64,000 nt of DNA from Methanolobus bombayensis (GTDB taxonomy: Archaea; Halobacteriota; Methanosarcinia; Methanosarcinales; Methanosarcinaceae), in NCBI RefSeq assembly GCF_017873415.1, contig NZ_JAGGKD010000001.1:1-64000 (forward strand), read 5' to 3'. Made by a program: the position numbers and the translations under genes. Every line of letters begins with the position of its first letter. The first letter of the stretch is position 1. Shown here one piece after another: positions 26,960 through 39,113 of this stretch. Under the pieces are notes generated by a model. That model had not been told where the DNA came from, ran no database searches, and saw only the letters and a program-made list of their open reading frames with translations.

Positions 26960-28021
26960 TTGACAGGTACGGAATTCACTGCATGGTTTGGTAAACTCAA
27001 ACTTGATGCTAATGGCGAGATAGAGGATTGCGACCTTTTCGATAAAGACCCTGAAAAGCTGGCAGAAATTGTTGTAGAGCTGCAGAATAATCCACAGTCT
27101 GTCCCGTTGCAGAGAGCTGATCTGAGAGATGCTGCACTTGAATGTGGTTTTGTTGAACTTGACGAGGATTATGATATTCTTCTCCGTGATGTATGTATCA
27201 GAGCTGCAAAGAGCCAGATATCACAGACCGATACTGATGATTCAAGGATTATCCAGGCCGTTGAAGCGCTGGATGATATTGATAAGAATGTGAATGAGTT
27301 GAGCGAGCGCCTGTTCGAGTGGTACGGAAGGTATTTCCCCGAACTTGAAATGACAGGCGAGGGGCTTGCAAACTTTGTTTCAGCCTACGGCTCCCGGACA
27401 AATGTTCCTGAAGACCATGCAATGTCAGAGAAAGCATCTCAATCAATGGGTGCTGAACTCCTGTTTGCAGATGAGGAGCTTTTGAGAACTTTTGCAAACA
27501 ACATCTGCAGTCTGTATGACACACGCCGGTATATTGAGAATTACATTAATACGAGCATGGGCTCAGTGGCACCAAACCTTTGCGAGGTTGCAGGTGCATC
27601 ACTTGGTGCCCGTCTTATGAGTATGGCAGGAAGCCTTGAAAAGCTGGCGGCTTTCCCATCCAGCACGGTTCAGGTGATTGGAGCCAACAGGGCGCTTTTC
27701 AAACATCTGCGCTCCCGTGCACCGTCCCCGAAACATGGAATTATCTTTAACAATCCAGTTATTAAGAATGCGCCCTGGTGGCAGAGAGGAAAACTTGCAA
27801 GGGCACTTGCAGCTAAGATAAGCCTTGCTGCAAGGACTGATTTCTATTCCGGTGAACTTGATCCAACTATCAAGGAAGCCCTCGATAAGAAACTGGAAAG
27901 CATAAGACAGGCTAACCCTAATCCACCGGAAAAGAAACCGGAAGCAAAACCACAGAAAAGGGGCGGCAAGCGTAAAAGCAGAGGCCGGAAGAAAAACAAA
28001 AAGTCAGGAGGTAATAACTGA
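26960..28021 (+). CDS. Nop5 (Nop56/58 homologue)
   Basis: Core scaffold of the archaeal box C/D RNP that guides rRNA/tRNA 2'-O-methylation; it binds fibrillarin, L7Ae and the guide RNA. The N-terminal domain (1-115) contacts fibrillarin, a coiled coil lies at about 115-215, and the NOP RNA-binding domain (TSMGSVAPNLCEVAGASLGARLMSMAGSLEKLA) is at about 205-237 with the following PSSTVQVIGANRALFKHLR. The tail is Lys/Arg-rich. TTG 26960 follows AGGAGGAT and is preferred over GTG 26936, which overlaps the upstream gene. The stop overlaps the flpA ATG by one base. Confidence 0.93.
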   Translation: MTGTEFTAWFGKLKLDANGEIEDCDLFDKDPEKLAEIVVELQNNPQSVPLQRADLRDAALECGFVELDEDYDILLRDVCIRAAKSQISQTDTDDSRIIQAVEALDDIDKNVNELSERLFEWYGRYFPELEMTGEGLANFVSAYGSRTNVPEDHAMSEKASQSMGAELLFADEELLRTFANNICSLYDTRRYIENYINTSMGSVAPNLCEVAGASLGARLMSMAGSLEKLAAFPSSTVQVIGANRALFKHLRSRAPSPKHGIIFNNPVIKNAPWWQRGKLARALAAKISLAARTDFYSGELDPTIKEALDKKLESIRQANPNPPEKKPEAKPQKRGGKRKSRGRKKNKKSGGNN

Positions 28022-28716
28022 TGCCGGTAAGAGAGTTATCCAGCGGAATCTATGAGCTGGACATCGATGACAGGAAGATGCTTGCGACAAAGAATATGAT
28101 TCCAGGCATGAGTGTCTACGGTGAACGTCTCATTACAGACGACGATACAGAATACCGCCAGTGGGATCCAAGCAGGAGCAAGCTCGGAGCCATGGTGCTT
28201 AAGAACTTCGATATCCCTCTTGAATCTGATTCAATAGTTCTGTACCTTGGTGCAGCTTCAGGAACAACAGTAAGTCACGTATCCGACATTCTAACAGATG
28301 GACTTGTCTATGCAGTTGAGTTTTCCCCACGCACCATGCGTGACCTTATCCAGCTCTGCGACCAGCGTCCGAACATAATTCCAATTCTTGCAGATGCCAA
28401 CAAGCCACAATCTTACGCTCAAATAGTGGAAAAAGCGGATGTAATTTTCCAGGATGTTGCTCAGCCCAACCAGGCTGAGATCGCGGCTATCAATTCAAAA
28501 TACTTCTTAGAAGAACAAGGCCACCTGATGCTCTCCATCAAGTCAAGGAGCATTGACACCGTAGCCAGCCCGAAAAAGATATTCAAGGAAGAGGTCCGCA
28601 AACTTGAAAGTGGCTTTGATATTGAGTTCGAGGTACTGGAAAGAAAAGAGCTTGATCCTTTCCATGAGGACCATCTGGGTCTGGTGGCACAGATGTTTGT
28701 GGATGATGAGGAATGA
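28021..28716 (+). CDS. flpA: fibrillarin-like 2'-O-methyltransferase
   Basis: SAM-dependent catalytic subunit of the box C/D RNP. The SAM site is VLYLGAASGTTVSHVSDI (about 75-92), followed by VYAVEFSPRTMRDL and DVIFQDVAQPNQAEI with the conserved Asp. 231 residues, full length. ATGA-type overlap with nop5 couples their translation. The last 104 bp are repeated at 30129-30232 with 7 mismatches, downstream of the DUF4143 ATPase gene, suggesting that the gene's 3' end was rebuilt when that module arrived. Confidence 0.95.
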   Translation: MPVRELSSGIYELDIDDRKMLATKNMIPGMSVYGERLITDDDTEYRQWDPSRSKLGAMVLKNFDIPLESDSIVLYLGAASGTTVSHVSDILTDGLVYAVEFSPRTMRDLIQLCDQRPNIIPILADANKPQSYAQIVEKADVIFQDVAQPNQAEIAAINSKYFLEEQGHLMLSIKSRSIDTVASPKKIFKEEVRKLESGFDIEFEVLERKELDPFHEDHLGLVAQMFVDDEE

Positions 28717-28736
28717 AGTTGTTTAAGGAACAAGTA

Positions 28737-29993
28737 TCATTCAAGCATCCATTTCCAAATCGGTTTTACAGTAATCTGCTTGCCATCAATTTCAATTTGA
28801 TCCTCTGTGTCATCTGTGAGAATAAGACCTTCACTCAGGTTATAGGCTTCCAGAGCATCAAACAATCCTTCGATTTCTCTTTTTCTTGTATCCGTATTTT
28901 CAAGGCTCTTTGTAACCTGAATAGCTTCAGAAATGTTGTAACCATTCCTGATGACAAAATCACATTCCTTATTTTCTCTATGATAGTAGATTTCAAGTTT
29001 CCTTCTTTTTAGTTCCATGAACACCATGTTCTCAAGTATTCTTCCATAGTCCTCTGATGTTCTGAAACCCAATATCTTTGCGATGGCTGTGTCTATGAAG
29101 TACACTTTTTTGTTGGAATAAACCTGCGTTTTGAGGGATGTGGAAAATCTAGGTAAAAGATATGCAAGATAACTGTTCTCAAGGTACTCGAAGTATTCTT
29201 TTACCGTAGTTGCACTGGAAAGTCCTGTCAGTTTTCTGACATTATTGTAACTTATCTCCTTTGCGATGTTGGATGCCGCAAAGTATGCTGTTGTTTTGAG
29301 TGCCTTTTCATCTTTGAGGTTGTATCTTGCAATTATGTCCCTGTAGATTATGTTCTCATAAAGCGTTTTGACATAAAGCTCATCCCGGTTCTTCACAAAT
29401 TCCGGTATTCCACCAGCTTCGATATACTCATTGAAGTGTCGTTTAAGTGTGCTTTTCTCCACAGTAGTAAGCACTTCCGGGATTGGCAGCTCGAATTTTT
29501 TGAAACGAAGGAATTCCCTGAAAGAATAAGGATATAATGAATAGCTAAGATGCCTGCCTGTGAGGTGTGTTCCCATCTCCCGGCTCAGCATGCTTGCATT
29601 AGAACCGGTGACATACACTTTCTTTCCATTATCATGAAGCCTTCTGACAAATCTCTCCCAACCACGAATGTTCTGTATCTCATCAAAAAAGTAGACGTTC
29701 CTTTCACCATACAGCTCGATGAGCAGTTCCTGCATGGTCTGAAAGTCCTCTATTGTAAAATCAAAGAGCCTCTCGTCATCAAAGTTCACAAAATAGCTTT
29801 CATTAAGATGATCTTTCCTTATCTCGTTCATGAGAGTTGATTTCCCAACTCTGCGAAGCCCTGCAACTATTGTGATAAGATCTGAATCCCTGCTCTTTAT
29901 TTCATCCAGCAGTTCCCTTTTGACCAGATCTTCAACATCTTTGATGTGGTCATTCTGCTCTTTCAGCAGGATTTTTAGTTTCTCTTTGTCCAT
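28737..29993 (-). CDS. AAA ATPase with C-terminal DUF4143
   Basis: 418 residues. Walker A is AGLRRVGKSTLMN (about 44-56), Walker B NVYFFDEIQNIRGWERF (about 97-113), and sensor VYVTGSNASMLSREMGTHLTGR (about 125-146). The C-terminal half (about 215-400) is DUF4143 with MVFMELKRRKLEIYYHRENKECDFVIR, which resembles a PD-(D/E)xK nuclease-like core (E...E-x-D). Such ATPases are common, patchily distributed and of unknown role in archaea. It is convergent with flpA and lies between two copies of the flpA 3' end. Two palindromes precede its start. No partner gene is adjacent on the same transcript. Confidence 0.88.
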   Translation of the reverse strand: MDKEKLKILLKEQNDHIKDVEDLVKRELLDEIKSRDSDLITIVAGLRRVGKSTLMNEIRKDHLNESYFVNFDDERLFDFTIEDFQTMQELLIELYGERNVYFFDEIQNIRGWERFVRRLHDNGKKVYVTGSNASMLSREMGTHLTGRHLSYSLYPYSFREFLRFKKFELPIPEVLTTVEKSTLKRHFNEYIEAGGIPEFVKNRDELYVKTLYENIIYRDIIARYNLKDEKALKTTAYFAASNIAKEISYNNVRKLTGLSSATTVKEYFEYLENSYLAYLLPRFSTSLKTQVYSNKKVYFIDTAIAKILGFRTSEDYGRILENMVFMELKRRKLEIYYHRENKECDFVIRNGYNISEAIQVTKSLENTDTRKREIEGLFDALEAYNLSEGLILTDDTEDQIEIDGKQITVKPIWKWMLE

Positions 29994-30023
29994 GTTTTAT
30001 ACTGGGGGTTCTTTGTTTATATA

Positions 30024-30046
30024 TATTTGGTTTGGTAGGCCAAATA
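30024..30046. promoter_or_regulatory. palindromic operator copy A (DUF4143 ATPase promoter)
   Basis: Arms TATTTGG and CCAAATA separated by 9 bp, matching the outer part of the perfect palindrome at 31786. It overlaps the TATATATA element (about 30018-30026) expected for the ATPase promoter on the minus strand. Confidence 0.55.
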
Positions 30047-30056
30047 AATGCATTAT

Positions 30057-30079
30057 TATTTAGTTTAGTAAACCAAATA
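30057..30079. promoter_or_regulatory. palindromic operator copy B (DUF4143 ATPase promoter)
   Basis: Arms TATTTAGTTTA and TAAACCAAATA around a central G, one mismatch in eleven pairs. The centre is 33 bp from copy A, about three helical turns, so two dimers could bind on the same face. Confidence 0.6.
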
Positions 30080-30106
30080 ATTAGTTGATGCTGATTTTAA
30101 TATCGT

Positions 30107-30232
30107 TTTGTTAAAATCTTAGAAAACAGCTTTGACATTAAGTTCGAGGTGCTGGAAAGAAAAGAGCTTGATCCTTTCCACGAGGACCATCTGGGTCTGG
30201 TGGCGAAGATGTTTGTGGACGATGAGGAATGA
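30107..30232 (+). pseudogene. flpA 3'-end remnant
   Basis: Bases 30129-30232 align without gaps to the last 104 bp of flpA (28613-28716) with 7 mismatches, mostly at third positions, including the stop codon. Conceptual translation keeps FEVLERKELDPFHEDHLG. Similarity continues weakly at protein level to about 30107 (VKILENSF versus VRKLESGF) and then stops at an in-frame TAA. No start or upstream fibrillarin sequence exists. Its TGA abuts the convergent stop of the membrane-protein gene, which suggests this copy is the original flpA end displaced by the 1.5-kb ATPase module. Confidence 0.85.
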
Positions 30233-31729
30233 TTAAGTTTCGTGGTCATCTTCTTCAGTATCTTTGACAACATGTAACACTTCATCTATCTGTTTAGTTA
30301 TCTTTCTCCATTTGAATTTTTTAATATGGTCCTTCCTTTTTATAGCTCTATCCTGCATCTCCCACATTTCCTCAATGTTTCTCTTTAAAATATTGAAACC
30401 TCTTTCACATTCTTCAGCAACTTGAGATTTTCCATTTTTTATTGCTATATTTCTTATTTCATCAAGTGCTTTTGAGACAGTTGATACAACTCCTTCACGT
30501 TCTTTATCTATCGCTTTAACTCCTATATTTTTGAGTTTTTTTGCAGCTTCTATAGCAGCTTCCACAAGTTTTTCTTCTTCTGCTTTCACTCCAACCTTTT
30601 TGATTTCGTCGACAGCAATGACTTCAATCCAATAAAGTTTCTTCTCAACTGCTATCGTTCCTACCTTCCCAAGTTCCCTTATAGCATTTATTGAACCCGT
30701 ATGAAGTCTTTTTTCAGAGGCATGAACTCCTATCTTCCCAAGTGTTTTTTCGGCTTTTTCGATAGTTATTTTAAGTTCTTCTTCCGCTGCTTTAACTCCT
30801 ATGATTCCAAGAGCAGTTACAGCATCCTTTAAAATCCAACGACGATTTTGCTTAACTGCTTCATGTCCAAGCTCTTCAAGGCAAATAATTATGGAATTTG
30901 TAGATTCTTCGTTTTTCTTGTTGATTGAATGAATTCCAAGCCTTTGTACATGTTGAAACATATAAAATGACATCTTCTTCTCTTCATGCTCATTAAAATG
31001 ATTGCTTTTGATAATGCAAGTTATGGATTTTTTTATAGCATTAATTCCGTTTTTAGCAGTTTCATAATCGTCATATAAAATAGCTCTATTTACCATGTCT
31101 ACGATTGACTGCATTGGATCCTTCTCTACAATATCTCCATCGTTTTCCAAAGCCTCAAGAATTTTTTCTTTTGTAATCTCCTCCGCCAACAACTTAATCA
31201 CAGTCGAAGGCTTCAGCAAGTCCAATGTCTTCAACATATACGGCACCAGACAAACAAAAGCAAAGAACCCCATGAAGTAAGCCACAAAAATGGCGCCCTC
31301 CATGTAGTTTCCTAAAATGCCAAGTCCAATGATTTTTGTCAATCCAAGTCCGTAGAAGATAGTAAAAATGTAAATGCAGAGAAGTATCCACATATCGGGG
31401 TTCCGTTTGTAGACATCAATGACTCTTGCAGAATAGGATTGGGCTGCGAGTTGTACGGCTACAAGGCTGAGTGTGATAACTAACGCGATGGTAGCTGCTA
31501 AACTCTGGACGAGGGCGCTGAGGAGATAGCGCTCGTTGTCGTAGTCAATGGCGTTGTTGGGGAATGTGAAATTTGGGAAAGTAAGATTGAATATTCCAAA
31601 AACGATTATGAATGCCAAGGTTATGCTTGCAAATATAGTAGCGTAGAACAGTGTTCTGTTAATCCATGCAGGTTTGTCGAAGTAATTTGCCAGATTATTG
31701 CATTTCTCTTTTAGTTTATTTGATAGCAT
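30233..31729 (-). CDS. DUF2254-like membrane protein with HEAT-like repeats
   Basis: 498 residues. Three to four membrane helices lie in about 1-180 (LFYATIFASITLAFIIVFGIF, ALVQSLAATIALVITLSLVA and two around 125-165); VAVQLAAQSYSARVIDVYKRNPDMW is the DUF2254 signature. Residues about 300-450 hold four to five repeats of about 30 residues, each with a Leu-x-x-(I/V)-Gly-(V/I)-x-Ala-x-Glu pattern, probably HEAT/ARM-like helices on the cytoplasmic side. ATG 31729 is chosen: the longer frame from 31849 would run through the palindrome at 31786-31808. The stop touches the flpA remnant. Confidence 0.65.
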   Translation of the reverse strand: MLSNKLKEKCNNLANYFDKPAWINRTLFYATIFASITLAFIIVFGIFNLTFPNFTFPNNAIDYDNERYLLSALVQSLAATIALVITLSLVAVQLAAQSYSARVIDVYKRNPDMWILLCIYIFTIFYGLGLTKIIGLGILGNYMEGAIFVAYFMGFFAFVCLVPYMLKTLDLLKPSTVIKLLAEEITKEKILEALENDGDIVEKDPMQSIVDMVNRAILYDDYETAKNGINAIKKSITCIIKSNHFNEHEEKKMSFYMFQHVQRLGIHSINKKNEESTNSIIICLEELGHEAVKQNRRWILKDAVTALGIIGVKAAEEELKITIEKAEKTLGKIGVHASEKRLHTGSINAIRELGKVGTIAVEKKLYWIEVIAVDEIKKVGVKAEEEKLVEAAIEAAKKLKNIGVKAIDKEREGVVSTVSKALDEIRNIAIKNGKSQVAEECERGFNILKRNIEEMWEMQDRAIKRKDHIKKFKWRKITKQIDEVLHVVKDTEEDDHET

Positions 31730-31785
31730 GCCCACATAAGATAAACAGTTCCAAGAAATAAAATTGTATTGTAGTATTATGTTAG

Positions 31786-31808
31786 TATTTGGTTTAGCAA
31801 ACCAAATA
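31786..31808. promoter_or_regulatory. palindromic operator copy C (DUF2254-like gene promoter)
   Basis: Perfect 10-bp arms TATTTGGTTT and AAACCAAATA around AGC, 57 bp upstream of the chosen ATG at 31729. Nearly identical to copies A and B before the DUF4143 ATPase, so one DNA-binding protein probably controls both genes. Confidence 0.65.
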
Positions 31809-31935
31809 GGTGAATAGTATCGTTTTTTAATCTTGATGCGCACCTTCAATTTTGAACGGTTAGCATCAAAACCTTTATCATCTCTACTCTCATAAATGAG
31901 ATTCTACTCAAATATGAGATTAATGTGGTAAGTCA

Positions 31936-33854: not shown

Positions 33855-36800
33855 TTGATAAAGGAAGAAACGAAAAGAAAAAAGCGAATACTGCAATTAG
33901 GACTTGTTCTAATACTTGTCTTACTTTCAGTTATCTCTGCAAGTGCTGCTATAACACCTGCTGGAAATGGTGTTGTAACGGTTTATGGAGACAATAAGAC
34001 CGAATATATGGTCCCTACTTATTTGAATTTCACAGCAACGGAAAATGCAGGGGATATAACAGAGTTGAACATAGTATGCTCACAAGAAATCGGTCTTGAT
34101 GTTTTAGAGACTGGTCATTATAGTTTAAGTAGTTTTGAGAATGTTTCCTTAGATAATATCACATTCAATGAAACCAATAATGTACTGACCATTTCTAACG
34201 GTACAAATATTATTGTTCATAATAACACACAATTTTCCATTAACATATCAGATACTGCAGTAGTGTTTGAAGATAGTATTCTAGAAAACACCACCTATAC
34301 ATTCACACTCAACACTAGTGTAACAACTACAGGTGTCCCAATCTATTTAACAATAGATGGTGAACCTTCTGTAGTTCCTGTAAATTATACTCAATCATCT
34401 ACTACCTGGGTAAAGAATGGAACAACTTTGACGTTCAATACAAGTATTACTGACGCTGCATCGGGAGTGAAGAATGCTACAGTTGATATCACATCCATCA
34501 ATGCAAGTGCTGGCATAATTGATCTTTACAACACTTTCTCTGATTACTGGACAAACAGTTCATTTATTGTAAGTGCCACAGATGGTGAATACAATCTTCC
34601 AATCACATCTTACGATAATGTATCTTATGTAAACAATAGTGAGAATTTCACTGTGTGGGTGGATAATACAAAACCAACTGTCACTCCAAATACCTACGGC
34701 GAAACAATAACCTGGGCAAGTAACGGAACTCTACTAAATCTTAATGTAACTGTAGATGACGGAACAGGTTCCGGTGTGTACAATGTATCTGTAGGAGGAG
34801 GCTCTGTTAATAATTCTTATATGCAGGTACCTCTGTCATACGTTGATGGATACTGGATAAACGATACTATTATTGTGGGCACAAGCACCCAGGGTCAAAT
34901 TAACATGCCGATATTTGCAAGGGATAATCTTAGCAATGTCAATAGTACAACAAACTTTAGAATATGGATTGACAACGTTGAACCTGAAGTTACTCCAATA
35001 TCCCCAATCCCTGCAGATGCATGGGTGAACAATGGTTCCACACTTAACCTCAACTTAAGTGCTGTAGACATCGGAGGGGCCAATGCAAGTAACATCAGTA
35101 CTGTAACTGTTAATGTTTCATTAGTTAATTCGACAACAACAGCAATTCTTAGTAATATTGGGGGAACAGATTACTGGTATAATAACTCACTTCTGGTTTC
35201 CTCTTCTGAAGGAAGCATAGACTTACAGATAGAAGCATCTGACAATGCAGGTAATGTCAACAACAGCGTCAATCTTACACTAAAAGTGGACAATACAAAT
35301 CCTGTTGTAAGCAATGAATCTGTTGTATATACTTCAGGATTTAATGCTGTAAACAGAAATGAGACAGTATTATTGAATTTCACTGCAATCGATGTAACTT
35401 CAGATCTGAACCTTTCCGCTGTGAATATCAACGTTTCCAATCTTAATAGTTCACTCAATTGGGAAACAATGACACCTGCAGTTGGTAACAACTTTACATT
35501 ATCTGTAATAATCGACAATTCCAGTACAGGTACTGCAGTTGTTCCAATCAGTGTTGCTGACAATGCAACAAACACAAACACCAGTCAGTCCATCTCAGTT
35601 GTCCTGGATAATTCAGGTCCACTTGTAACAGGTGTAACACCTGATGGTTCCCAGTGGTTAACAAACGGTTCAACCATTGATATCAATGTCTCAAGTACAG
35701 ATATCGGTGATGCAGGAGTGCAGAATCTGATGGTCGATATCTCATCTGTAAATGCAACTGGAACTGCCAATCTGGCAAATTTAGCAGGTGATTACTGGAC
35801 CAATTCTTCACTTACTGTTTTGACAGCAAATGAAGGTACTATTGATCTTCCGGTAAGTGCATATGACAATCTGAGTAACCTGAATAATAGTGTCAATCTG
35901 ACGATCAAGGTAGATAATTCCGCACCTGTCTTTACAACCAATGAATCTGTTTATCCGGGAGGAATGAATGCTATCAACAATGGCGGAACTGTAACTTTGA
36001 ATGTCACAGTATCAGATGCTTATTCTGGAGTGAATGTGTCTACAGTACAGGTTAATGCAACTGGTATTAACAGTTCACTTGGATGGGAGACACTAGCATT
36101 AGCAAGTGGTGATGACTTTACACTGGATGTTATTGTCAATACATCATCATCCGGAACAGTGATCCTTCCGGTAAGAGCAGCCGATAATCTAAGCATGTGG
36201 AACACTTCAGCTTCCATATCTGTTGAAATCGATGTTGCAGAACCAACCGTCACTCCGGTTTCACCAATTAGTTCCATGTGGTTTAAGGATGGAGATGTTC
36301 TTGACCTGAATGCCAGCATCGTTGATGCAGGTACAGGAGTTAAGAATGCAACTGTCACTTTGAATAATGTTAATGCTTCAACATTAGCAATTCTGGAGCA
36401 TGGAGGTAGTAACTACTGGATCAATAATTCACTGATAGTTGATTCATCCTCAGAGGGAACCATAAATCTTACAGTGGTAACCTATGATAATGCAACCAAT
36501 TTCAACAATTCTGTGAATCTGACAATCAATGTGGATAACACTATTCCAGCAGTGAGCAGTGAATTAGCTGCATATCCATCTGGATTTAATGTTGTAAAAA
36601 GTGGTGGAACAGTACTATTGAACTTCACTGCAACCGATGCAACTTCAGGCTTGAACACTTCTGCTGTAATGATCAATGTTTCTAACCTTAACAGTTCACT
36701 TAACTGGGAAACAATGAGCTCTGCAGGCGGCGATGACTTTACCTTATCTGTGATTGTTGACAACTCAAGCACCGGTAATGCAGTTGTTCCAATTAGTGTT

Positions 36801-39113
36801 GCTGACAACGCATCAAATATGAACACCAGTCAGTCGATCTCTGTAGTTCTTGATAATTCCGCACCTCTTGTAACAGGCATTACACCAGATGGTTCAGAAT
36901 GGGTCACAAACAGCTCAACCATTGATCTCAATGTATCGAGCATAGACGCTGATTCAGGAATGAACAGTGTGATAGTAGATACTTCAGATGTATCAGCTGC
37001 AAGTACTGCAGTTCTTGCAAACTCTGCAGGAGATTACTGGACTAATTCCACACTTACGGTTTTGACATCAAATGAAGGTACTATCAATCTTACTGTCAGT
37101 TCTTACGACAACCTTAGCAATGTTAATAGCAGTGTCAACCTTACATTGAAAGTTGATAATTCAGCTCCTGTATTTACCAACACTGAAGCTGTTTATCCAG
37201 ATGGCTTGAGTGGGGTAAGAAATGGAGGACTTGTAACTCTCAATGTCACTGTAACAGATGCTTATTCCGGATTGAATGCATCTTCTGTGATGGTTGATGC
37301 TTCCAATGTAAACAGTTCACTTGGATGGGAAACAATGACTTCTGCAGGTGGTGATGACTTTACACTGACAGTGTTAGTCAACGCTTCTTCTGGAACACTA
37401 ACCCTGCCTTTGAAAGCAGCTGATAATGTGAGTCTGTGGAATACTTCAGGTTCTATTTCCGTAGAAGTGGACAGTACAGATCCTACAGTTACAGCAGTTT
37501 CACCAACAGGTTCCCAGTGGTTCAAGGATGGTGATACCCTTGATCTGAATACTACAATTGTTGATTCAGGAACCGGAGTTAAGAATGCTACAGTTACTTT
37601 GAACGGTGTCAATGCTTCCACCTTCGCAATTCTGGAATATGCAGGAAACGACTACTGGATGAATGATTCACTGATTGTTGATCTAACCGGTTCAGAAGGA
37701 ATAATTAATCTTACAGTTGTAGCTTATGACAACGTAAGTAACTTTGATTCTTCAGTGAACCTCAGTATCAAGGTAGACAATACTGAACCTCTTGTGATTG
37801 ATGCTCAGATTGAATATGCAACCGGTTACACAGCAGTAAACAATGGGTCTACTATTACACTCAATGCAACAGTCTCTGATGGCAGCCTTTCAGGTGTTTC
37901 AAGTGTAATGTCCATCGATAATATCAGCAGTGTAAGTGCAAGCGAGAATGTGACACTGACTCAGGTTTCTTCAACTGATTACTGGAAGTACAGCAATCTT
38001 GAGATTTCCGGAGCTGAAGGAACATACCTGCTTAATGTCACAGCAACCGATGAAGCAGGAAATGTCAATGGCAGTTCATCAGCAACCTTTGAGGTTATCA
38101 TTGACAACACAGATCCTGTCTTACACAACCTGACACTGAGCACAGAGGACCCAGGTTCTTATGGTGAGAGCATTGAGGTCACTGTGAATGTATCTGATGC
38201 TGGAAGCGGTATTAAGAGCGTCACAGCAGCAGGAACTGCACTTACAGATCAGGGTAGCAACATATGGAATGGAACAATATCTGCAGGATATGGTGCAAAT
38301 ACTGTAACAGTGATTGCAACAGATAATGCAAGCAATGCAGTAACTAATACCAGTTTGTCGTACACAGGTCCTGATGCTCCAAGCTCAGATTCCAGTTCAA
38401 GCAGCAGCTCAGGTGGTCTTTCATCAACAACACGTGAAGCTTTCCTTGAATCAAAGAGCACTTACGAAGGAGCAAAGATCGTAACTCAGGAATCTTCCGG
38501 AAAGGTTCTTTCTGATCCGGTAAAGGTTGTTTCTGTGAAACTGACCAGGACTGAAGTTACAGGTGTTGAAGTTGAATCTGAAGTCGATATTGAAAAGATA
38601 TCAGTTTCAGTCCAGAAACTTGATTCCAAGCCGGATAACATCCCTGGTTCTGCACCGGGCAATGTACACAGCTACCTTAACATCGAAGTAAGTGAACTTG
38701 ATGCCGGAAAGATCGCTGGAGCAAGCATTACCTTCAAGGTAGAGAAATCATGGCTTGAGGAGAATGGAATCTCAACCGACGACGTTGTACTTTCACATTA
38801 TACAGGAAGTAAATGGGATCAGCTTGAGACCTCTGTTTCAAGTGATGACGGAGAGTACGTGTATTATGTTGCTAAGACTCCAGGCTTCTCAACATTTGCA
38901 ATAAGCACCCGTTCAGATTCTGAAGAGGACTATGTAGCTTCAGATGACACAATTGGGTCTGACGCAGATTCCGGAGAAACTGAAAGTGAAGCTACAGATG
39001 AAATGCCTGATGCAGAAGAGGATAAAGGAACTCCAGGATTTGGAATTCTCCTTGGAATAATGGGTGTTTCAATGGTAGCTGCATTAATGCGCCAAAAGAA
39101 CAGGAATGAATGA
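33855..39113 (+). CDS. giant Ig-repeat surface protein with PGF-pre-PGF domain and PGF-CTERM anchor
   Basis: 1752 residues from TTG 33855 behind GGAGAGGAT. A signal peptide (about 11-33) is followed by some twelve beta-sandwich repeats of about 100 residues with the pattern W-x-x-(N/D)-G-x-x-x-x-(L/I)-x-(L/V)-(N) ... Y-W-x-N-(S/D) ... VDNT-x-P. Four of these form a 415-residue block that is duplicated (35.3-36.5 kb and 36.6-37.8 kb; period 1245 bp). A Ser-rich linker lies near 1510. The PGF-pre-PGF domain (about 1530-1690) and a C-terminal PGFGILLGIMG helix with a basic tail show attachment by archaeosortase A. Rich in NxS/T sites, so heavily N-glycosylated. Probably adhesin or cell-surface matrix. 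Confidence 0.85.
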   Translation: MIKEETKRKKRILQLGLVLILVLLSVISASAAITPAGNGVVTVYGDNKTEYMVPTYLNFTATENAGDITELNIVCSQEIGLDVLETGHYSLSSFENVSLDNITFNETNNVLTISNGTNIIVHNNTQFSINISDTAVVFEDSILENTTYTFTLNTSVTTTGVPIYLTIDGEPSVVPVNYTQSSTTWVKNGTTLTFNTSITDAASGVKNATVDITSINASAGIIDLYNTFSDYWTNSSFIVSATDGEYNLPITSYDNVSYVNNSENFTVWVDNTKPTVTPNTYGETITWASNGTLLNLNVTVDDGTGSGVYNVSVGGGSVNNSYMQVPLSYVDGYWINDTIIVGTSTQGQINMPIFARDNLSNVNSTTNFRIWIDNVEPEVTPISPIPADAWVNNGSTLNLNLSAVDIGGANASNISTVTVNVSLVNSTTTAILSNIGGTDYWYNNSLLVSSSEGSIDLQIEASDNAGNVNNSVNLTLKVDNTNPVVSNESVVYTSGFNAVNRNETVLLNFTAIDVTSDLNLSAVNINVSNLNSSLNWETMTPAVGNNFTLSVIIDNSSTGTAVVPISVADNATNTNTSQSISVVLDNSGPLVTGVTPDGSQWLTNGSTIDINVSSTDIGDAGVQNLMVDISSVNATGTANLANLAGDYWTNSSLTVLTANEGTIDLPVSAYDNLSNLNNSVNLTIKVDNSAPVFTTNESVYPGGMNAINNGGTVTLNVTVSDAYSGVNVSTVQVNATGINSSLGWETLALASGDDFTLDVIVNTSSSGTVILPVRAADNLSMWNTSASISVEIDVAEPTVTPVSPISSMWFKDGDVLDLNASIVDAGTGVKNATVTLNNVNASTLAILEHGGSNYWINNSLIVDSSSEGTINLTVVTYDNATNFNNSVNLTINVDNTIPAVSSELAAYPSGFNVVKSGGTVLLNFTATDATSGLNTSAVMINVSNLNSSLNWETMSSAGGDDFTLSVIVDNSSTGNAVVPISVADNASNMNTSQSISVVLDNSAPLVTGITPDGSEWVTNSSTIDLNVSSIDADSGMNSVIVDTSDVSAASTAVLANSAGDYWTNSTLTVLTSNEGTINLTVSSYDNLSNVNSSVNLTLKVDNSAPVFTNTEAVYPDGLSGVRNGGLVTLNVTVTDAYSGLNASSVMVDASNVNSSLGWETMTSAGGDDFTLTVLVNASSGTLTLPLKAADNVSLWNTSGSISVEVDSTDPTVTAVSPTGSQWFKDGDTLDLNTTIVDSGTGVKNATVTLNGVNASTFAILEYAGNDYWMNDSLIVDLTGSEGIINLTVVAYDNVSNFDSSVNLSIKVDNTEPLVIDAQIEYATGYTAVNNGSTITLNATVSDGSLSGVSSVMSIDNISSVSASENVTLTQVSSTDYWKYSNLEISGAEGTYLLNVTATDEAGNVNGSSSATFEVIIDNTDPVLHNLTLSTEDPGSYGESIEVTVNVSDAGSGIKSVTAAGTALTDQGSNIWNGTISAGYGANTVTVIATDNASNAVTNTSLSYTGPDAPSSDSSSSSSSGGLSSTTREAFLESKSTYEGAKIVTQESSGKVLSDPVKVVSVKLTRTEVTGVEVESEVDIEKISVSVQKLDSKPDNIPGSAPGNVHSYLNIEVSELDAGKIAGASITFKVEKSWLEENGISTDDVVLSHYTGSKWDQLETSVSSDDGEYVYYVAKTPGFSTFAISTRSDSEEDYVASDDTIGSDADSGETESEATDEMPDAEEDKGTPGFGILLGIMGVSMVAALMRQKNRNE

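Follow-up and report, generated by a model that had tools for sequence, protein, structure and literature searches.

A DUF4143 ATPase gene of Methanolobus bombayensis lies between two copies of the 3′ end of flpA, and this duplicated end is a real feature of the genome. The flpA site is a hotspot at which modules have been added repeatedly, at times in series, and relatives of the ATPase sit likewise at the ends of other genes and therefore appear to spread by landing there, with no integrase. The account that we favor, with modest confidence, is that the ATPase module is explained by homology-facilitated illegitimate recombination, with later exchange across the repeats that it produced.

The duplicated flpA end in M. 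bombayensis

The window is the whole stretch of 64,000 nucleotides (nt) that was analyzed, and in it flpA, encoding a fibrillarin-like rRNA methyltransferase (PF01269, E 7e-86), occupies positions 28021 to 28716 of the forward strand as an intact target gene. Its 3′ end forms the first copy (28606 to 28716, forward strand) of a 111-nt direct repeat; the second copy (30122 to 30232, forward strand), a displaced stub of the flpA 3′ end, follows at a spacing of 1516 with 91% identity. A preliminary description of this DNA had reported that the last 104 bp of flpA recur 1516 bp downstream with seven mismatches, and a repeat search agrees, the two copies matching at 93% over those 104 nt. They differ mostly at synonymous sites, as had also been noted. 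A search of the 3.12-Mb genome returned these two copies only, the second at an E value of 1.9e-39, and the repeat far exceeds what chance would give.

Between the two copies lies the cargo of the module, a gene for an AAA+ ATPase (AAA_14 plus DUF4143; PADLOC PDC-S01) on the reverse strand (28737 to 29993), convergent to flpA. It is preceded by two 19-bp palindromes of the type TTTGGTYT-N3-ARACCAAA, 33 bp apart, namely, TTTGGTTTGGTAGGCCAAA (30026 to 30044), beside the gene's TATA-like box (about 30014 to 30026), and TTTAGTTTAGTAAACCAAA (30059 to 30077). The module junction falls at about 30115 to 30125, equivalent to flpA nt about 580. The next gene, on the reverse strand, encodes a DUF2254 membrane protein (30233 to 31849; PF10011, E 6e-12); its annotated start is TTG, an ATG at 31729 being likelier. 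Its stop directly adjoins that of the second flpA-end copy in convergent orientation, so the neighbor said earlier to abut the second copy is the DUF2254 gene. Between flpA and this gene, no integrase was detected. Farther along, downstream of ribB and a tRNA-Pro gene, the window holds a gene for a repetitive 1752-aa protein (33855 to 39113) that is probably surface exposed.

The flpA site in relatives and repeated ends at other genes

We compared flpA, together with as much as 16 kb of the sequence after it, in 27 Methanolobus species, the window genome (G000) and 26 others. An empty site, in which flpA converges straight onto the DUF2254 gene with stops 1 to 19 bp apart, was present in five species (G003, G004, G007, G012, and G014); the preliminary description had named this arrangement as one that would favor insertion, and it supports the view that the ATPase module was inserted between flpA and the DUF2254 gene. 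In G010, flpA runs directly into ribK. An orthologous ATPase gene adjoins flpA in 8 of the 27 species (G000, G005, and G019 to G024; broken in G020). A profile of the flpA end detected displaced ends in G000, G001, G005 (two), G006, G008, G011, G020, G021, and G022; the trace that it gave in G023 is doubtful (E 0.17). For the sister genus, the profile gave an unambiguous hit at L105 (E 3e-16) and a weak one at L107 (E 0.005).

Stub and ATPase do not always occur together. A stub accompanies the ATPase in five of the eight Methanolobus carriers; G019 and G024 have the ATPase with no detectable stub, G023 has a doubtful trace at best, and four genomes (G001, G006, G008, and G011) have a stub without the ATPase. 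Thus, both arrangements that the preliminary description had set against an insertion, the ATPase without the repeated end and the repeated end without the ATPase, do occur. The stub-only sites of G006, G008, and G011 and of L105 in the sister genus are nevertheless explained by loss and decay of the module, because operator or module sequences persist there (at L105, the ATPase tail and a palindrome), and in G001 a different cargo, HepT/MNT genes, separates flpA from its stub. In G005, two stubs stand in series, a PIN gene preceding the second. The stubs retain the order of the gene through the stop codon, and their starts cluster at flpA nt about 572 to 583 in six cases, one of them with PIN cargo, the others ranging from nt about 510 to 640. 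Stubs that are repeated and serial, together with varied cargo and module remnants, identify the flpA site as an insertion hotspot. As a separate observation, the interval between flpA and ribK (L033 to L059) is variable and holds many genes of toxin-antitoxin type (MNT nucleotidyltransferase, HepT, and PIN), and its DUF2254 genes are highly divergent (41 to 55% between most species).

The preliminary description had suggested a search for other DUF4143 genes with target-gene ends on both sides, and such loci were found among about 120 related ATPase loci checked. The genes concerned are purB (L206; 507 bp at 90%, the stub starting 2 bp past the ATPase stop), gyrA (L192; 178 bp at 88%), a histidine kinase gene (L233; 257 bp at 75%), and a gene for a 144-aa protein that matches no Pfam family (L187; 84 bp at 85%, ending exactly at the stop), giving repeat lengths of 84 to 507 bp outside flpA. 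With ATPases clustered at 75% identity and a wider distance to the stop allowed, target-end duplications were seen in 5 of 49 ATPase clusters (flpA counted) and in none of 103 control genes (p = 0.003, indicative only, because the test followed sight of the examples). A stricter earlier test gave a nonsignificant difference (4 of 81 ATPases versus 1 of 103 controls, p = 0.17), and the enrichment of target-end duplications around the ATPase is therefore suggestive, not proven. Only repeats at a neighboring gene's 3′ end were counted, because the general excess of flanking repeats of any kind in Methanosarcina (16 of 49 ATPase clusters versus 9 of 103 random genes) is partly due to repeat-rich intergenic DNA. 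Most ATPase loci have no target-end repeat, and among HepT modules 1 of 28 has one.

A second hotspot is gyrA, in Methanosarcina, where the ATPase is convergent to gyrA within a few kilobases in 5 of 20 genomes; the stub is clear in G171 and lies nearer the gene in G159. A further candidate was rejected. In G014, three 3′ fragments of ftr (formyltransferase) occur, two inside L125 (G014:C44:104000-117000) and one at G014:C44:117786, and the DUF4143 ATPase near them is flanked by 146-bp repeats; the intact ftr sits on another contig, and the locus was not counted as the same anatomy.

Possible routes of insertion and exchange

In our preferred account, the ATPase gene and its upstream palindromes, a predicted operator pair, would have entered the flpA 3′ end without an integrase, as a one-gene insert of about 1.4 kb flanked by direct repeats built from the target gene's own end. 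The founding insertions would most likely have occurred by homology-facilitated illegitimate recombination. On one side, donor DNA with the target gene end and the ATPase would pair with the target gene of the recipient; on the other, it would be joined illegitimately to the interior of that gene, so that a complete gene is rebuilt and the recipient's old 3′ end is left as a stub. With target-gene ends on both sides, the cassette could then be gained, exchanged, or precisely lost through ordinary homologous recombination, and new cargo could stack at the same gene end. A complete target gene at one end and a join of variable position at the other, as illegitimate recombination would leave, are seen both at flpA and at the other genes. 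The variable stub starts and repeat lengths argue against a fixed att core, although the nearly identical start of six stubs could point to a preferred site. Since stubs also accompany PIN (G005) and HepT/MNT (G001) genes and one of the HepT loci, the route may not be exclusive to the ATPase. Counting against recombination, no intermediate or recent strain pair was seen among these genomes, each of which is from a different species.

This type of recombination is known in bacteria at low frequency (PMC3240628) and has been proposed as the source of stacked displaced gene ends in the type VI secretion system (T6SS) effector-immunity arrays of Vibrio cholerae (PMC5361080). Those arrays would share with the flpA module a homology anchor upstream, an illegitimate join downstream, and older displaced parts in series (PMC5361080). 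However, their anchors are the competing effectors themselves, whereas the ATPase modules would be anchored in unrelated core genes (flpA, gyrA, and purB) and carry a single ATPase gene. Integrase-driven elements that restore a 3′ end, such as islands in tRNA and protein genes, likewise have a complete target gene beside the element and a displaced end on the far side; unlike them, the ATPase module has no integrase and apparently no fixed att core, measures about 1.4 kb with one gene, and uses several unrelated targets. Displaced gene ends could help to trace where such genes were recently gained and to reveal other integrase-free islands.

The two copies also bear on which end is old. The preliminary description had taken the second copy for the original flpA end and the first for a replacement brought by the module. 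In the window genome, neither copy is clearly closer to those of relatives, and G005 points the other way. At clade-diagnostic sites, its intact flpA end has clade-A alleles through nt 671, whereas its first stub is foreign at nt 601 to 654 and native-like at nt 655 to 671; judged by these alleles, the intact end is native and at least half of the stub is foreign. The G005 ATPase DNA is 85 to 87% identical to that of most carriers (82% to the G020 pseudogene), but the first 580 nt of its flpA are only 76 to 79% identical to those of other carriers. Because the ATPase is the closer of the two, this comparison indicates horizontal transfer from another clade into the same site. Bases not observed in any functional flpA number 22, 10, and 5 in the left, middle, and right thirds of six stubs, against a background of about 0.3 per sequence. 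This gradient suggests that the module side of a stub is old and the far side fresh native sequence; both it and the foreign-to-native order in G005 are as expected from crossovers inside the repeated gene end.

Alternatively, the ATPase itself may drive insertion: as an AAA+ protein whose C-terminal domain is PD-(D/E)XK-like, it would cut the 3′ regions of targets so that the module is copied in, and the module would be a new self-mobile single-gene element. The greater frequency of duplicated ends at unrelated genes in the cluster test, the capacity of an ATPase with a nuclease-like fold to act on DNA, the broad and patchy distribution of the ATPase, and the boundary near flpA nt 580 common to six stubs would all fit. 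We nevertheless consider this unlikely, given that the nuclease motif lacks its usual lysine in this clade, that stub lengths and starts vary, that PIN and HepT/MNT cargo have stubs without this ATPase, and that most ATPase loci lack a target-end repeat. A broader form, in which DUF4143/PDC-S01 ATPases at large are widespread self-promoting single-gene elements that bind a dimeric operator pair 32 to 33 bp apart and aid their own insertion at host-gene 3′ ends, rebuilding the gene and leaving a displaced end, is in our judgment quite unlikely.

If the module had been inserted just once, long ago, in a common ancestor of Methanolobus and its sister genus and passed down vertically since, gene conversion between flpA and stub within a genome would have kept some stubs fresh, and precise deletion between the repeats would have emptied sites. 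ATPase divergence matches flpA divergence in six of the eight Methanolobus carriers, and much of the Methanolobus pattern may thus be old and vertical; in addition, a stub and module remains are found in the sister genus (L105), and in G020 the intact flpA end and the stub share a derived terminal sequence. As a full explanation, however, this scenario seems improbable, since the G005 ATPase came from another clade and its stub is foreign, two boundary groups and serial stubs need more than one event, decay falls from left to right instead of symmetrically, and the same anatomy recurs at unrelated genes. Finally, it is very improbable that the module is the relic or a passenger of an element whose tyrosine integrase targeted flpA and rebuilt its end, the integrase having been lost or acting in trans. 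Although the anatomy mimics such elements and PF00589 integrases are present in all 27 Methanolobus genomes, every one of these lies more than about 25 kb from flpA. The flpA end was not found in the plasmid, phage, and viral-contig collections searched, boundaries vary, and several unrelated genes show the same anatomy. Relatives of the ATPase were also sought in viral contigs, and none was confirmed.

The ATPase family and its upstream repeat pair

The 418-aa window ATPase exceeds the curated cutoffs for both of its domains (AAA_14, 125.9 versus 27 bits; DUF4143, 79.1 versus 28.1 bits), and PADLOC PDC-S01, an AAA+ ATPase fused to a PD-(D/E)XK-type domain, matches nearly its whole length (E 8e-116); NCBIfam and PHROGs gave no match. 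The Walker and AAA+ residues G45, G50, K51, D104, and E105 are invariant in 18 homologues. An AF2 model (pLDDT 88) has the archaeal AAA+ ATPases 2qen and 2fna as its nearest folds (Z 17, residues 16 to 310), although AAA+ domains commonly have neighbors above Z 10, and such matches indicate the fold alone. The C-terminal PD-(D/E)XK-like motif reads D345...Q359-V-T in this clade, without the usual lysine, and E-V-K in some distant relatives; E343 and D345 are invariant. The ATPase is probably a defense-type gene, selected as such. PDC-S01 is among the commonest candidate defense genes, with several transfers between domains, and has been ranked as the fourth most common defense or candidate defense system in prokaryotes; validation is pending for most such candidates, and PDC-S01 itself is widespread and unvalidated (PMC12988326). 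Its role in virus defense is, in the literature, that of a candidate, and the papers that we found on PDC-S01 describe neither insertions of this kind at gene ends nor an operator pair before the gene, and give no account of how these genes move or are controlled; a search for DUF4143 found it mentioned in one unrelated paper. The present data offer a testable route for PDC-S01 movement, namely, integrase-free insertion at core-gene ends.

A repeat pair 32 to 33 bp apart upstream of the ATPase is a family-wide feature, seen in a first set of homologues and confirmed in a second. The best upstream repeat had this spacing in 18.8 of 30 nonredundant archaeal and bacterial homologues (control, 15.4 of 195) and, in an independent set, in 16.1 of 27 (control, 6.3 of 153), with binomial p values against the control rates of about 1e-13 to 1e-15. 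The upstream repeats of DUF4143 ATPases (L060 to L089 and L136 to L233) are often palindromes whose motif is specific to the subfamily while the spacing is constant. A motif that varies with the subfamily at a fixed spacing suggests that the ATPase itself would recognize the predicted operator pair, each subfamily its own sequence, and we infer that the ATPase probably binds upstream of its own gene.

The exact palindrome motif occurs in 9 of the 27 Methanolobus genomes, at the flpA hotspot, before the DUF2254 gene (G000 and G014), or by a broken ATPase copy (G006:C27). In the window, this ATPase-type palindrome, TTTGGTTTAGCAAACCAAA, lies upstream of the DUF2254 gene (31788 to 31806) and is the sole exact motif match in the genome; in G014, one precedes the DUF2254 gene at G014:C48:14856-14907. 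The same palindrome before both genes suggests that the DUF2254 and ATPase genes may be under shared control. At another locus, L126 (G006:C35; 4947 to 5030 and 6566 to 6647), a second operator-pair sequence stands downstream of an ATPase gene, perhaps left by a neighboring module since lost.
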